A DNA stretch of 64,000 nt from an uncultured Bacteroidia bacterium (GTDB taxonomy: Bacteria; Bacteroidota; Bacteroidia; Bacteroidales; F082). The stretch is from positions 1 through 64,000 of the forward strand of contig CAJVWU010000005.1 in assembly GCA_913009755.1 (NCBI GenBank). The letters are read 5' to 3'. The translations under genes and the position numbers were made by a program. This document shows, piece by piece, positions 2,934 to 60,911 of the stretch. The notes below the pieces were generated by a model. The model saw only the letters and a program-made list of their open reading frames with translations. It did no database searches and had not been told where the DNA came from. Numbering within the stretch: position 1 is the first letter of the stretch; every line of letters begins with the position of its first letter.

Positions 2934-3254
2934 ATGCTGAAATACAATTTTGTAGTAACATTTTTTTACCCGCTTTATTGATCTTTGAGTCAGCAAGGTC
3001 TTTTCTCACACACAATCTGTAAAAGCGCAATGATTTTTTTGCTGCGCCTGACGTTTTTATGTTAAAAAAATAACAGAAAAATAATTTTCCGGGAATGGCC
3101 GGGGTTCACTAATTCAACCAAAAATCATAAATAAATGCTGATAAAAAAAATATTGTTTTAAAAGGCCAATTTTTATTGATTCTTAACAAGAAATTTCAAA
3201 AACTTTCTTAGTGAAAAAAATAACAATAGGATTATTCACCTTAAACCAGAAATT
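2934..3254. other. intergenic region, AT-rich, no gene seen
   Basis: About 320 bases between a strong terminator and the porin gene at 3255. It must hold the porin promoter, but I see no good TAnnTTTG element with a TTTG partner at the right spacing. No small ORF with a convincing start was found. Confidence 0.5.
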
Positions 3255-4562
3255 ATGAAAAAGTTCCTTTTAATTGTTGTGATGCTGACCTTTGTATTTG
3301 TCTATGTTTATCCCCAGAAGAAAGGTGATATAACCGTACCCCGGACAGACAACAAGTACAAGCCACTTACTTTAAAACTGTCGAAGGACGGGAGCAAATA
3401 CATCCGTTTTCTTATGTGGGGACAGTTTTGGCTGACCGGAAATAAAAACGCCAATGGCGATTTTCAGGTTAATCCCTTGTTACGCAGGGCCCGCTTTCTT
3501 ACCTACGCCCAGATTTCACCACGCTTTCTGATCCTGATGCATTTTGGCGTGAATAGCTTGAGTGCTAATAATATGGATCCCATCGGAAACCGCTCCAATG
3601 CACCACAATTGTTCCTTCATGCACTTTGGATGGAATATGCCATTGTTCAAAAGTATCTTTACATTGGCGGGGGGCTGCATTACTGGAACGGTATCTCAAG
3701 GATTACCAGTCAGAGCACGCTGGGATTTATGACCTTGGATAATTACCGGCGCGCGTGGGCCACACTTGGACTTTCCGATCAATATGCCCGTCATCTTGGG
3801 ATTTATGCCAAAGGTATGGCCGGCGGATTTGCTTACAGGGTATCCGTAAATTCTCCGATTGTCAATTCATTGGATGTTTCAAAAATACCTTCGGCAGAGG
3901 GTTATGATAGCTGGGACGGACAAACGCTTTATACCAGCAGGTATATGTACGATAATTACAAAGACAATTTCAATAATTTAAAAAGAGCGGCATGGTCATA
4001 CCAGGGGTATTTCGAATATCAGATATTTGACAAAGAATCCAACAAACTGCCTTACCGGGCTGGAACTTATCTCGGTAAAAAGAAAGTGCTCAACGTAGGG
4101 GCGGGCTTTTTTGCCCATCCTAACGGAAGTGTTACTTATAACTCCGCCCTGACCGTTACCCAAAATAATGTTTCTGTTTATGCTGTTGATGTGTTTTATG
4201 ATACGCCCCTGGGAACAGGCGGTCTGACGGCTTACGGTGCATACTACTCGTTTAATTACGGCCCAAAATATACTTACGGTCAAACCTATGGAACAGGGAA
4301 TTCGATCCTGCTTCAGGCCGGTTATCTGTTTCCCCATTTCAGCGATAAAGTGAGCTTACAGTTATACACGGCTTTCAACACGGCTAATTTTACTGCTTTT
4401 GACCATCCGGGAAATGCCGTACGGACAGGGTTGAATATGTTCCTTAACGGACAGCATGCAAAAATTACCCTGGAATATGATGCAACGCAGGATCAGTATA
4501 GCGGCGATACCAAACCGGAAAGAAAAAACAGTGTGATCCTGCAAGCCCAGATTTTCTTGTAA
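3255..4562 (+). CDS. outer-membrane porin-like beta-barrel protein
   Basis: 435 aa. The N-terminus is a Sec signal peptide (MKKFLLIVVMLTFVFVYVYP, cleavage near QKK). The rest alternates hydrophobic and polar residues with many aromatic girdle positions and ends in QAQIFL, with a terminal hydrophobic strand typical of Bacteroidota outer-membrane barrels. Early residues (FLMWGQFWLTGN, then LLRRARFLTYAQISPRF) resemble the opening strands of porin O/P-like proteins, where a conserved R-R/A-R segment follows the first strand. Substrate cannot be read from the sequence. It stands alone between terminators at 2900 and 4572, so it is likely monocistronic. Function as a diffusion porin is inference from fold only. 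Confidence 0.75.
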   Translation: MKKFLLIVVMLTFVFVYVYPQKKGDITVPRTDNKYKPLTLKLSKDGSKYIRFLMWGQFWLTGNKNANGDFQVNPLLRRARFLTYAQISPRFLILMHFGVNSLSANNMDPIGNRSNAPQLFLHALWMEYAIVQKYLYIGGGLHYWNGISRITSQSTLGFMTLDNYRRAWATLGLSDQYARHLGIYAKGMAGGFAYRVSVNSPIVNSLDVSKIPSAEGYDSWDGQTLYTSRYMYDNYKDNFNNLKRAAWSYQGYFEYQIFDKESNKLPYRAGTYLGKKKVLNVGAGFFAHPNGSVTYNSALTVTQNNVSVYAVDVFYDTPLGTGGLTAYGAYYSFNYGPKYTYGQTYGTGNSILLQAGYLFPHFSDKVSLQLYTAFNTANFTAFDHPGNAVRTGLNMFLNGQHAKITLEYDATQDQYSGDTKPERKNSVILQAQIFL

Positions 4563-19197: not shown

Positions 19198-20757
19198 ATG
19201 AAAAAATACGACAAACTCATAAAAAATGCAGTCGGCCGAGTGGTTCCCACCATCATCAACGGTGAAGGGCATATCCCTTTTCAGGGTGTGGGGAAATACA
19301 AACCTGCAGGACGAAAGTACGGGCCGAAGATTGCAAGTTGTGCCGATTATCCTGTGGATGGGAACAAAACAGTCGAAAGTTTAAAAGAAGCGCTCATCAA
19401 AGCCGGGCTGAAAGACGGCATGACCATTTCAACCCATCATCATTTCCGTAACGGCGACCTGATTGCCAACCAGGTATTTGACATTGCCCACGAGCTTAGT
19501 ATCAAAGGCCTGCGATGGTATCCGTCAGCATCGTTTCCCTGTCAGGAGCATCTGATCCCTTATCTCGAAGACGGTACAATCAACCGCATTGAAGGCAGCA
19601 TGAACGGGCCGCTGGGCCGGTTTGCTTCCGAAGGCAAAATGAAAGGGCTGGGTGTTCTCCGTTCGCACGGTGGCCGTTACCAGGCCGTGCAGGATGGCGA
19701 AGTTCAAATTGACATTGCGGTTATTGCCGCCCCCACCGCCGATCCCTTCGGTAATGCCAACGGTGTTTACGGTGATGCGGCTTGTGGCCTGTTGGGATTT
19801 GCCCTTGCCGATTCACAATATGCCGATAAAGTCGTCGTAGTAACCGATCATCTGGTTCCATTCCCCGCAATTCCCTGGCAGATTCATGGCAACTATGTGG
19901 ACTATGTGGTGAAAGTGGACAAAGTGGGCATCCCCGAAAAGATCATTTCCGGAACCACAAAGATCGCCAAAAGCCCTGATCGTTTGTTGATTGCCGAACT
20001 AACTGCCAGATTCTGCGAAAAAACCGGGTTAATTTATGACGGATTTTCCTACCAGGCCGGTGCCGGGGGAACGGCTTTGTCAATCGGTAATTATTTCGGG
20101 GATATTTTAAGAAAGAACGGATGGAAAGCCCGGTTTATCCGTGCGGGAAGCAACAAATATGCCGTTGAAATGCTGGAAGAAGGACTGGTGGACTACATCC
20201 TCGACGGTCAGACGTTCGACCTTGATGGTGTGCGTTCCATGCGCGAAAACCCGAACCACGTCAACACCTCTCCTTTTACTTCTTACAATTATCATGGTAA
20301 AGGTAATTTTGCTTCTATGATTGACGTTGTAGTGCTGGGTGCCACCGAGGTGGACGTTAATTTCAACGCCAACGTGGTCACTCACTCCGATGGTTATTTG
20401 CTGCACGGTATCGGCGGCTGGCAGAACTGCCTTTTCGCCAAAACCACGATTCTTCCCATCCCGCTGTTCCGTGACCGGATACCGGTTATCCGCGATGAAG
20501 TGACAACCCTTTGCGGACCGGGTGAATTGATTGATGTCATTGTTACCGAAAGGGGTATTGCCATTAACCCGTTGAGGCAGGACCTGATGGAAAAAACCAA
20601 AAATTCAGGCCTTCCCATCAAAACCATAAAGGAATTGAAGGAAGAAGCGGAAGCCATTTGTGGTGTTCCCGAAAAGCCAAAACTGTCCGATGAGATCATT
20701 GCCGTCATCAAATGGGTGGACGGTACAGTGATTGACTCGGTGAGGAAGGTGGAATGA
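19198..20757 (+). CDS. citF: citrate lyase alpha subunit (citrate:acetyl-ACP transferase)
   Basis: 519 aa from ATG 19198; an earlier in-frame ATG at 19120 overlaps the end of the preceding gene and adds non-family sequence. The protein follows CitF along its whole length: YDKLIKNAVGRVVPTIINGE, DGMTISTHHHFRNGD, RIEGSMNGPLG, APTADPFGNANGVYGDAACG, YQAGAGGTALSIGNYF, VLGATEVDVNFNANVVTHSDG and LPIPLFRDRIPVI. It exchanges the acetyl group of the acyl-carrier domain for citrate. Its partner is the fused CitD-CitE encoded just upstream. Cytoplasmic complex. The gene ends at the border of a palindromic repeat island. Confidence 0.95.
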   Translation: MKKYDKLIKNAVGRVVPTIINGEGHIPFQGVGKYKPAGRKYGPKIASCADYPVDGNKTVESLKEALIKAGLKDGMTISTHHHFRNGDLIANQVFDIAHELSIKGLRWYPSASFPCQEHLIPYLEDGTINRIEGSMNGPLGRFASEGKMKGLGVLRSHGGRYQAVQDGEVQIDIAVIAAPTADPFGNANGVYGDAACGLLGFALADSQYADKVVVVTDHLVPFPAIPWQIHGNYVDYVVKVDKVGIPEKIISGTTKIAKSPDRLLIAELTARFCEKTGLIYDGFSYQAGAGGTALSIGNYFGDILRKNGWKARFIRAGSNKYAVEMLEEGLVDYILDGQTFDLDGVRSMRENPNHVNTSPFTSYNYHGKGNFASMIDVVVLGATEVDVNFNANVVTHSDGYLLHGIGGWQNCLFAKTTILPIPLFRDRIPVIRDEVTTLCGPGELIDVIVTERGIAINPLRQDLMEKTKNSGLPIKTIKELKEEAEAICGVPEKPKLSDEIIAVIKWVDGTVIDSVRKVE

Positions 20758-20765
20758 AAAATACA

Positions 20766-20881
20766 GTTCATTTCGAACGAGCGACGAAGGAGCGAGGAGA
20801 AATCCCCAAAGCGCAACCCTTTTCCCGGGAGATTTCTCACCACCACCACACAGGCCATCCCACAAGGGTTCGAAATGACAG
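20766..20881. repeat. nested-palindrome repeat element, copy A
   Basis: About 115 bp bounded by inverted ends (TTCATTTCGAAC on the left, GTTCGAAATGACAG on the right). Inside is a second inverted pair, GAGAAATCCCC and CCCGGGAGATTTCTC. It lies immediately after citF, upstream of the GIY-YIG gene, in the same orientation as copy B. Confidence 0.85.
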
Positions 20882-20894
20882 TTTGTTGCTTTGG

Positions 20895-20921
20895 CGATCT
20901 CTTCCGATGGTCGAAATGACA
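20895..20921. repeat. partial copy of the palindromic element
   Basis: The sequence CGATCTCTTCCGATGG followed by TCGAAATGACA resembles the right half of the neighbouring elements (inner GATTTCTC arm plus outer TCGAAATGACA arm) with divergence in between. Confidence 0.55.
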
Positions 20922-20946
20922 AACAATTTTTATTATTTTCGCTACT

Positions 20947-21249
20947 ATGTCACGCCAATATAACTTCTTCGTTTACATCATGACCAACAAACGTAAAAAT
21001 GTAGTTTATACCGGCATGACTAACGATCTGGAAAGAAGGGTATATGAACATGAAACAGGTGCATTCAAAGGTTTTTCGAAAAAATATAATTGTCATTACC
21101 TGGTTTATTACGAGCATTTTATTATTGTTGGCCATGCCATTGAAAGGGAAAAGGAAATTAAGAAATGGAGAAGAGAAAAGAAAGACCGGTTAATTTCTTC
21201 TTTCAATCCTGAATGGCGGTTTTTGAATAAAGAGATAGAGAATATTTAA
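20947..21249 (+). CDS. GIY-YIG nuclease family small protein
   Basis: 100 aa, a single GIY-YIG domain of the size seen in UPF0213/YhbQ-like proteins. The core is present: FVYIMTNKRKNVVYTGMTNDLERRVYEHE, with Tyr of the 'VYI' and 'YTG' strands, the catalytic Arg in ERRVYEH, and a later conserved Glu in AIEREKEIKKWRREKK. No extra DNA-binding domain is present. It is flanked by directly repeated copies of a nested-palindrome element (20766-20881 and 21263-21376), which suggests that the gene and repeats move or spread together, in the way REP elements associate with RAYT proteins. That link is inference. Closely similar small proteins are common in Bacteroidota. Confidence 0.9.
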   Translation: MSRQYNFFVYIMTNKRKNVVYTGMTNDLERRVYEHETGAFKGFSKKYNCHYLVYYEHFIIVGHAIEREKEIKKWRREKKDRLISSFNPEWRFLNKEIENI

Positions 21250-21262
21250 AAAATAAATCCGG

Positions 21263-21376
21263 CTGTCATTTCGAACGAGCAAAGCGAGGAGAAATCCCCG
21301 AGGCGCAACCCCTTTCTCCCGGGAGGGTTTCTCACCGCCACCACACGAGCCAACCCACTTGGGTTCGAAATGACAG
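21263..21376. repeat. nested-palindrome repeat element, copy B
   Basis: 114 bp starting CTGTCATTTCGAACGAGC and ending GGGTTCGAAATGACAG, the same layout and orientation as copy A, with the inner pair GAGAAATCCCC and GGGTTTCTC. It begins 13 bases after the GIY-YIG stop codon. Confidence 0.88.
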
Positions 21377-21388
21377 AAAAACAGAAGG

Positions 21389-21484
21389 CTGTCATTTCGA
21401 GGAAAACGAAGTGACGAGAAATCCCCGAGGCGCAACCCCTTTCTCCCGGGAGATTTCTCAGTTGTGCCTCCTTCGAAATGACAG
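21389..21484. repeat. nested-palindrome repeat element, copy C
   Basis: 96 bp from CTGTCATTTCGAGG to CCTTCGAAATGACAG, with the inner pair CGAGAAATCCCCG and CTCCCGGGAGATTTCTC. Its right half is the first unit of the 48-bp tandem array. Confidence 0.85.
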
Positions 21485-21630
21485 GGTAGTTCACAGGGAG
21501 ATTTCTCAGTTATGCCTCCTTCGAAATGACAGGGTAGTTCACAGGGGGATTTCTCAGTTATGCCTCCTTCGAAATGACAGGGTAGTTCACAGGGGGATTT
21601 CTCAGTTATGCCTCCTTCGAAATGACAGGG
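21448..21630. repeat. 48-bp tandem repeat, 3.8 copies
   Basis: Units start at 21448, 21496, 21544 and 21592; the last is cut at 39 bp. Each begins GGGAGATTTCTCAGTT or GGGGGATTTCTCAGTT, contains CCTTCGAAATGACAG and ends TAGTTCACA. Units differ at only one or two positions. The array is an expansion of the right half of element C and ends six bases from the stop codon of the minus-strand DUF2279 gene. A frame of 16-residue repeats runs through it but is an artefact of 48 being divisible by three. Confidence 0.93.
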
Positions 21631-21635
21631 AGTTT

Positions 21636-60050: not shown

Positions 60051-60911
60051 TTACTCTTTTTCCGGTTGTTCTTCTTTTTTTGCTTCGGGTTTTTCCTCTG
60101 CTTTGGGTTCACCCTTTTCTTCCGGTTTGGCCACGGGTTTTTCTTCTGCCTTCACTTCCGTTTTTTCTTCTTTCTTTTCCTCAACTTTTTCTTCAGCCTT
60201 CTCTTCAGCTTTTTCTTCGCTCTTTTTTTCGACCTTTTCTTCTGCTTTAGCTTCTTCTTTCTTTTCTTCTGCTTCGGGTTCAGTTTTGGCTTCCGGTTTT
60301 TCTTCAGCTTTAGCTCCGGCTACTGCTTCTTCAATGGCTTCTTTGGTAACCGGTTCTTCAACACTTTCGGTCGTCGTTTCCGTTTCCGTTTCAGTTTCGG
60401 CTTCTGTTTCGGCAGCGGCAGCACGTGCCTCTCTGGCCTGCTCTGCCACCTCTGAGGCCCGTTGTTTGGCCAGTTCGGCAGTACGGGCTTCTTTAATTTT
60501 TTCTTCGGTTTCAAGCCGTTCTTTACGTTCGGCACGGGCTTTTTCAGTCAGGCCCTGGCGTTTGGCTTCAATTTTCTCTTCTTTCCCTTTCAGCCAGGTC
60601 TGAAATTTAGCTTCGGCTTCCGATTCGGATAAAGCGCCTTTTGTAACCCCCTTCAGCAGGTGGTTTTTGTAAAGGACACCTTTGTAAGAAAGAATTGCCT
60701 TGACTGTGTCAGTGGGTTGGGCGCCTTTTTGCAACCAATCCAACGCTCTGTCGAATTCCAGTTTAATCTCAGCCGGGTTCGGAATGGGGTCGTAAGTGCC
60801 AATCTTCTCAATAAACTTTCCGTCACGTGGTGCACGACCATCCGCAATAACGATATGAAAAAAAGGTTTCCCTTTTTTACCATGCCGTTGTAATCTAATC
60901 TTGGTTGGCAT
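60051..60911 (-). CDS. rpsP: 30S ribosomal protein S16 with a long acidic/basic tail
   Basis: 286 aa. Residues 1 to ~85 are S16: [40 protein letters not shown] and [18 protein letters not shown]. Typical S16 is 80-90 aa, and Bacteroidota forms often reach 150-190. Here residues ~115-286 are low-complexity Ala/Glu/Lys (repeats such as [10 protein letters not shown] and ETETETET), a predicted long helix or disordered tail. The S16 part binds 16S rRNA in the 30S body. The role of the tail is unknown. Sequencing error is unlikely, since the frame stays open through a repetitive region. Confidence 0.93.

Follow-up and report, generated by a model that had tools for sequence, protein, structure and literature searches.

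A small GIY-YIG nuclease gene of an uncultured Bacteroidia bacterium, its flanking hairpin repeats and a candidate residue code for their stem letters

Why should a gene for a tiny nuclease lie among copies of one repeat? The question is raised by a 64,000-nucleotide stretch from an uncultured Bacteroidia bacterium (CAJVWU010000005.1, positions 1 to 64,000; hereafter the window), contig 5 of a host genome of 4.05 Mb in 165 contigs, in which a single-domain GIY-YIG nuclease gene is flanked by inverted repeats and a tandem array. We found that the repeat unit is a small hairpin containing a three-letter word, that such hairpins accompany homologues of the gene in other genomes, and that letters 2 and 3 of the word correlate with a few residues of the protein. 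The product of the gene is probably a small nuclease, specific for both sequence and structure, with the flanking hairpin as its cognate site; it would act on a single folded strand and read letters 2 and 3 through residues at about 73-78.

The nuclease gene and its repeats

The features of the locus are listed below with the evidence for each; the doublets carry no strand.

20768..20881, no strand: doublet 1, on the upstream side of the gene; its left half has decayed, with the left outer arm TTCAT instead of GTCAT, and its right half forms a strict TTC hairpin, 20831-20879 (minus) (direct reading, hairpin scan)
20911..20920, minus strand: lone outer arm GTCATTTCGA (decamer search)
20947..21249, plus strand: single-domain GIY-YIG nuclease gene, 100 amino acids, start ATG (open reading frame, Pfam, alignment, AlphaFold2 model)
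21163..21180, plus strand: codons for residues 73-78 (K W R R E K), the proposed word-reading segment, in and after the loop behind the Glu68 helix (column statistics, AlphaFold2 model)
21263..21376, no strand: doublet 2, on the downstream side of the gene; hairpin 21265-21296 (plus) on the left, right inner arm decayed (direct reading, hairpin scan)
21389..21484, no strand: doublet 3; hairpins 21391-21423 (plus) and 21452-21482 (minus) (direct reading, hairpin scan)
21448..21634, minus strand: 48-bp tandem array, 3.9 copies, 97% match (tandem-repeat and hairpin scans)

A preliminary description of the locus had placed a small GIY-YIG gene between the repeats, and the Pfam scan of the 100-residue protein agreed, with PF01541 as the sole family matched (E 2.4e-14). 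An alignment of 18 sequences showed that Y10, Y21, G23, R31, H35, E56, E68 and N87 are invariant. The AlphaFold2 model had a predicted local distance difference test score of 94 and a predicted template modelling score of 0.86, and residues 73-75 lie in the loop after the helix bearing Glu68. In a fold search the nearest structure was a UPF0213-type GIY-YIG protein (PDB 1zg2), which alone passed E 0.001; Slx1 and UvrC came next at E 0.08-0.2.

The preliminary description had also named a partial copy and an array grown from the right half of one copy; a lone arm lies at 20911-20920 and the array at 21448-21634. Each 48-bp unit of the array is one TTC hairpin plus a spacer, with complete hairpins at 21452-21482, 21500-21530, 21548-21578 and 21596-21626. 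Only seven strict hairpins (GTCAT-NNN...N'N'N'-ATC) were found at the locus, because one half has decayed in two of the three doublets. The arm GTCATTTCGA is not there by chance, with 45 copies in the genome against none for the reversed control. Of these copies 26 are near the two nuclease genes, nine at the window gene and 17 around a paralogous GIY-YIG gene (C10:23496-23795, 83% identical). Of the 19 decamers away from both gene clusters, 11 lay outside open reading frames of at least 150 amino acids.

The repeat unit is a small hairpin

Flanks of other homologues had different letters and one grammar: GTCAT followed by a word NNN, a loop, the complementary word and ATC. The unit is a small hairpin of the form GTCAT-NNN-loop-N'N'N'-ATC, and two such units often stand head to head as a doublet. 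Among 247 unique hairpins grouped into classes by letters 2 and 3, letter 1 was paired within its own hairpin in 239 (153/156, 59/63 and 27/28 by class), against permutation means summing to 149. Letters 2 and 3 agreed between the left and right hairpins in 84 of 95 doublets, and letter 1 was equal between the halves in 52 of these 84, with about 50 expected (calculated by hand from the margins). Letter 1 is therefore paired within the hairpin and at chance between the halves, indicating that it is the pairing within each half that has been conserved, rather than that of the outer arms with each other. The preliminary description had taken the three copies as nested palindromes; the doublets at 20768-20881, 21263-21376 and 21389-21484 are real, and nesting as the unit was rejected because doublet halves do not co-vary. 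Some measurements weigh against the single hairpin. When the nearest pair of arms was taken without regard to the word, full words matched in 246 of 313 cases. The window's single hairpins had weak folding energies (z 0.5, 1.1 and 0.5; a fourth reached z -2.6 in a different fold), and folding energy favours nesting in doublet 2, whose outer arms are 100% complementary over 14 nt and which as a whole folds as a nested structure (z -3.0).

Among 279 adjacent hairpin pairs no more than 150 nt apart, 111 were head-to-head, 82 tail-to-tail and 86 direct. Loops started and ended in GA in 242 of 320 unique hairpins, and in the 81 eleven-nucleotide loops positions 3 and 9 paired in 76 and positions 4 and 8 in 65. 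Tandem GA mismatches would fit a strand of DNA that is folded. A GNA triloop was present in just 38 of the 81 loops and hence is not claimed as a general feature. By eye, and uncounted, the flanks of a homologue subclade (L085, L090, L091, L093 and L096) had GTTTA in place of GTCAT, which suggests that the outer frame too changes with the enzyme.

Hairpins accompany the nuclease across loci and genomes

We assembled 140 loci and dropped five duplicates. The flanks of the remaining 135 (257,680 bases) contained 498 hairpins, whereas 20 dinucleotide shuffles gave a mean of 4.85 and a maximum of 8, and at least one hairpin was present at 100 loci. At 60 loci, the 185 kb lying no more than 1.5 kb from the gene held 152 matched and 29 unmatched arm pairs, and the 598 kb beyond held 38 matched and 16 unmatched pairs. 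A scan of the whole collection, considered here for the best 80 named loci, recovered mostly Bacteroidota and also Devosia, Micavibrio, Thermodesulfovibrio, Patescibacteria and others. At these 80 loci the first kilobase from the gene had 2.08 hairpins per kb, whereas the density farther away was 0.23; 69 of the loci had at least one hairpin within 1 kb, so homologues elsewhere too lie among such repeats. Tandem arrays with at least two hairpins occurred within 1 kb of the gene at 32 of the 135 loci and farther away at five; the 48-bp array of the window is thus not unusual.

The presence of hairpins followed similarity to the window protein: a GTCAT hairpin was found within 1 kb at 22 of 23 loci scoring at least 100 bits, at 14 of the 26 that scored 70-100 bits, and at none of the 10 fetched loci below 55 bits (a 69-bit fragment at C34 falls in no bin). 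This boundary is not sharp, because a distant GIY-YIG match of 36.7 bits outside the 10 fetched loci (3175-3411 in G058:C100:2978-3626) sits between NCT hairpins, and the association may reach beyond the close subfamily.

To classify the repeats we used letters 2 and 3 of the word, which gave four main classes, NTC, NCT, NGC and NCC. Hairpins of these classes were counted in 100 relatives, where reversed controls gave 0-2 per genome. Of the 30 genomes that have a homologue at E<=1e-20, 18 contained at least four NTC hairpins, versus 9 of the 70 that lack one (Fisher 3e-6), in line with the association drawn in the preliminary description. Homologues at this threshold occurred in 163 of 395 genomes of the phylum. 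The link between enzyme and repeat is well supported, and several counts speak against it: 35 of the 135 loci had no GTCAT-frame hairpin, the nine genomes just mentioned had at least four NTC repeats without a close homologue, and nine genomes without a classified nuclease had 10 or more repeats of one class or another. One of the latter, G083, had 147 NCT and 58 NCC hairpins, yet only distant GIY-YIG matches; either its enzyme was lost or missed, or a different enzyme serves its repeats. Several of the hairpin-less loci bear repeats of another frame, such as GTTTA (seen by eye, uncounted).

The hairpins could also act as RNA, as terminators or as regulatory or RNase sites, with the GIY-YIG gene incidental. 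We consider this very improbable. The 11 of 19 dispersed decamers outside long reading frames would suit it. However, hairpin orientation relative to the gene was roughly balanced (140, 115, 106 and 140), so that DNA is favoured over RNA as the acting form. Repeat class also tracks nuclease residues, as described below, and a change of class with the nuclease was observed in many lineages. The 10 fetched loci below 55 bits likewise argue against an RNA role, though the unfetched G058:C100 match does not follow them.

Residues 73-78 correlate with the word class

For the discovery set, 119 proteins (no stops, at least 80 amino acids) were retained from the 135 loci; 89 belonged to the four classes, 28 had none and two had others. 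The validation set, drawn from the phylum, comprised 109 loci, of which 105 were kept (one was already in the discovery set and three had a stop or were too short); 84 were in the four classes, 16 had none and five had others. On the protein tree of the 119 homologues with 89 labelled rows, class changed 21 times against a shuffled mean of 41.7, and none of 200 shuffles was as low. The most informative discovery columns were residues 73 and 75. In this set NTC went with K or R at residue 73 in 39 of 41 cases and NCT with G in 20 of 20.

We then predicted the class of each validation locus from discovery proteins less than 55% identical elsewhere. Residues 73 and 75 gave the right class at 54 of 84 loci, whereas the nearest neighbour on the rest of the protein was right at 22, and 300 random column pairs were right at a mean of 15.3 and at most 34. 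Residue 73 by itself did less well (42 of 84), and the score fell to 38-39 when discovery columns 39, 29 and 77 were added. The eight best six-residue windows all began between residues 68 and 75.

We also framed a rule on residues 73, 74 and 78 once both sets were known; it was right for NTC in 39/45 discovery and 12/17 validation cases, NCT in 20/28 and 13/16, NGC in 6/6 and 21/22, and NCC in 1/1 and 13/14. In the pooled 173 rows, the five motif columns, a post hoc choice, were right in 132 versus 53 for the rest of the protein. Genome-wide, in 25 of 29 cells a nuclease class assigned by this rule coincided with at least four repeats of the matching class, and in 8 of 40 with as many of another class (23 genomes), in a comparison that leaves out NCC, takes its rule from overlapping loci, counts the gene's own flanks and is not independent. 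We lean towards the view that residues 73-78 set stem letters 2 and 3 (KKWRRxK for NTC, KGWxRxK for NCT, K[AG]GSR for NGC and KKWxRxWK for NCC) in a widespread family of tiny GIY-YIG proteins, and that letter 1 need only pair.

Several results count against such a code. Two columns were chosen as the highest-scoring of four options (the top 1, 2, 3 and 5 columns scored 42, 54, 38 and 39 of 84), NCT-type nucleases also went weakly with NTC repeats (p 0.011), and strict tree-based pairs numbered 3-4, too few for significance, though none went the opposite way. These underpowered tests of independent pairs, together with a short protein and a poorly resolved tree, leave room for a hitch-hiking account, in which nuclease and repeats are inherited or transferred jointly and the code reflects mere shared ancestry. 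We judge this unlikely, as columns elsewhere in the protein predict class poorly. Among pairs 40-50% identical elsewhere, moreover, the same motif came with the same class in 477 of 816 and a different motif in 766 of 5828, with motif columns chosen after both sets were seen.

Proposed action on the hairpin

The association, the pairing of the word and the correlation of class with residues are observations; from them we infer cleavage of a single strand, a reading role for residues 73-78 and dispersal of the repeats. The cognate site would open with GTC, followed by AT and the three-letter word; next would come a loop, usually with GA at either end, then the complementary word with AT, and a closing C. 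The enzyme would most likely act on the hairpin strand when it is single and folded, as on the lagging strand, during repair or in incoming DNA. Word letters 2 and 3 would be read through residues at about 73-78, with letter 1 required only to pair. Cleavage and repair at hairpins could lead to local tandem amplification, hairpin dispersal, and gain and loss of the gene.

Hairpins of the GTCATxxCGA type are dispersed through the genomes of many bacteria, and to our knowledge no cause for them has been agreed; tying each word to a resident GIY-YIG gene offers a testable one. If the proposal is true, one system accounts for such repeats across many phyla and its specificity can be rewritten by few residues; a short residue segment could render a hairpin-specific nuclease programmable.

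Relation to neisserial repeats and other known systems

A search of the plasmid collection matched 30 records, and 12 of the 15 examined had hairpins. At these 12 out-of-phylum loci the residue rule was right at six, which weakens the code; the misses were five Rhizobiaceae and one Spirosoma, itself a member of Bacteroidota. One record, filed as a plasmid of Neisseria gonorrhoeae, is 2.17 Mb long and probably the chromosome. Its homologue is 41% identical over 85 residues and has 16 TCC hairpins within 1 kb. We take this gene to be ssn. A GIY-YIG nuclease and its sites, Ssn/NTS, were reportedly described in pathogenic Neisseria in Nature Communications in 2025. The window system resembles that family in having a stand-alone GIY-YIG domain of about 100 amino acids with conserved residues of the type known to be catalytic in GIY-YIG enzymes, in having a cognate repeated hairpin around the gene and dispersed through the genome, and in homology to the neisserial gene amid dRS3/NTS repeats. 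PMC3898611 gives the dRS3 pattern as ATTCCC(N8)GGGAAT, with almost 700 copies in meningococcus, and PMC3046118 also gives a consensus; those of the N. gonorrhoeae hairpins whose letters were read fit the pattern of the former.

Both systems have a single-domain GIY-YIG gene amid many hairpins of the GTCAT...ATC frame. The word is TTC here and TCC in Neisseria, the loop is usually framed GA...GA here whereas the neisserial stem is fully paired, and head-to-head doublets and a 48-bp array are found here. Judged on these features, the gene-repeat pair belongs with the neisserial nuclease beside dRS3 repeats (Ssn/NTS), so that its kind is already known and is extended to Bacteroidota and other phyla. 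The recognition code is apparently new: among the titles listed in searches of the open-licence literature, none joins GIY-YIG genes to such repeats and none concerns a residue code or compensatory word pairing. The Ssn paper may already hold part of the code or the word pairing.

REP/REPIN repeats with RAYT (TnpA-REP) enzymes are similar in three ways: their hairpins are dispersed and form inverted doublets, they cluster around the gene for a small nuclease of one domain, and the type of repeat tracks the enzyme; the 111 head-to-head pairs among 279 are REPIN-like in this sense. The RAYT partner is a Y1 HUH transposase, whereas the enzyme here matched only a GIY-YIG family. GIY-YIG homing endonucleases of the I-TevI type share the fold and a gene that is optional at an intergenic site. 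They have one homing site, whereas the cognate repeats here are multi-copy, and the Pfam scan matched no extra DNA-binding domain. UPF0213-type proteins, Slx1 and UvrC are alike as the closest solved folds; they are set apart in that the 10 fetched loci of more distant GIY-YIG genes (below 55 bits) were without GTCAT hairpins, although the G058:C100 match lies between NCT hairpins.

Gain, loss and mobility

The gene has a convergent gene of unassigned function on one side, and its other neighbour, read by eye, is presumably citrate-lyase-alpha-like. The junction of the upstream and convergent genes is common to G002, G013, G004 and G003, and the nuclease is absent there in all four. In G002, whose neighbour is 95% identical, the junction keeps hairpins without the gene, with one matched TTC word and the others decayed. 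The search for an empty site suggested in the preliminary description thus found a junction without the gene and no precise unit. Two or more matches were present in 80 of the 163 phylum genomes with a homologue (hand count; at most 12 candidates scored per genome).

These distributions could point to a mobile element, in which gene and flanking doublets move as a unit, the doublets serve as terminal ends or ends like those of miniature inverted-repeat transposable elements, and the nuclease mobilises them as in REP/RAYT. We regard this as possible and less probable than a nuclease acting on cognate hairpins. Multiple homologues per genome, doublets on both sides of the gene and elsewhere in the genome, and the hairpins left at the G002 junction agree with it. 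Against it, neither a clean empty site nor a target duplication, fixed ends or a precise unit was seen at the one junction compared, hairpin number and arrangement differ greatly among loci, and doublet halves do not co-vary. We know of no DNA-transposase role for GIY-YIG proteins. Mobility of the gene with its hairpins is something we only infer. Carriage by phages was also considered, and no match was found among 50,697 phage records, a negative that 10 viral contigs lie outside.

Other observations

Two plasmid loci have distinctive neighbourhoods. On Planktothrix agardhii plasmid p1 (L357), a homologue with NCT hairpins lies between an MmeI-type restriction enzyme and DISARM drmA; on Azospirillum lipoferum AZO_p3 (L366), one with CCC hairpins interrupts the suf cluster, with sufB on one side and sufC on the other. 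A distant GIY-YIG gene occurs in tandem every 354-356 bp or so, with seven matches at G006:C1:2733660-2735939 and three at G083:C20:13954-14898, and no GTCAT hairpins were found within 1 kb of these genes (L111 and L112). Another distant GIY-YIG protein (L116, G008:C66) has at its end a low-complexity TTSSATTSS repeat, which may come from reading through a repeat in the DNA. The host genome also contains two equal-scoring GIY-YIG genes 571 bp apart (G000:C121:5110-5890), which are not close homologues and are without NTC hairpins. Elsewhere in the window, positions 60138-60311 hold an imperfect 12-48 bp tandem repeat of the TTTTTCTTCAGC type.

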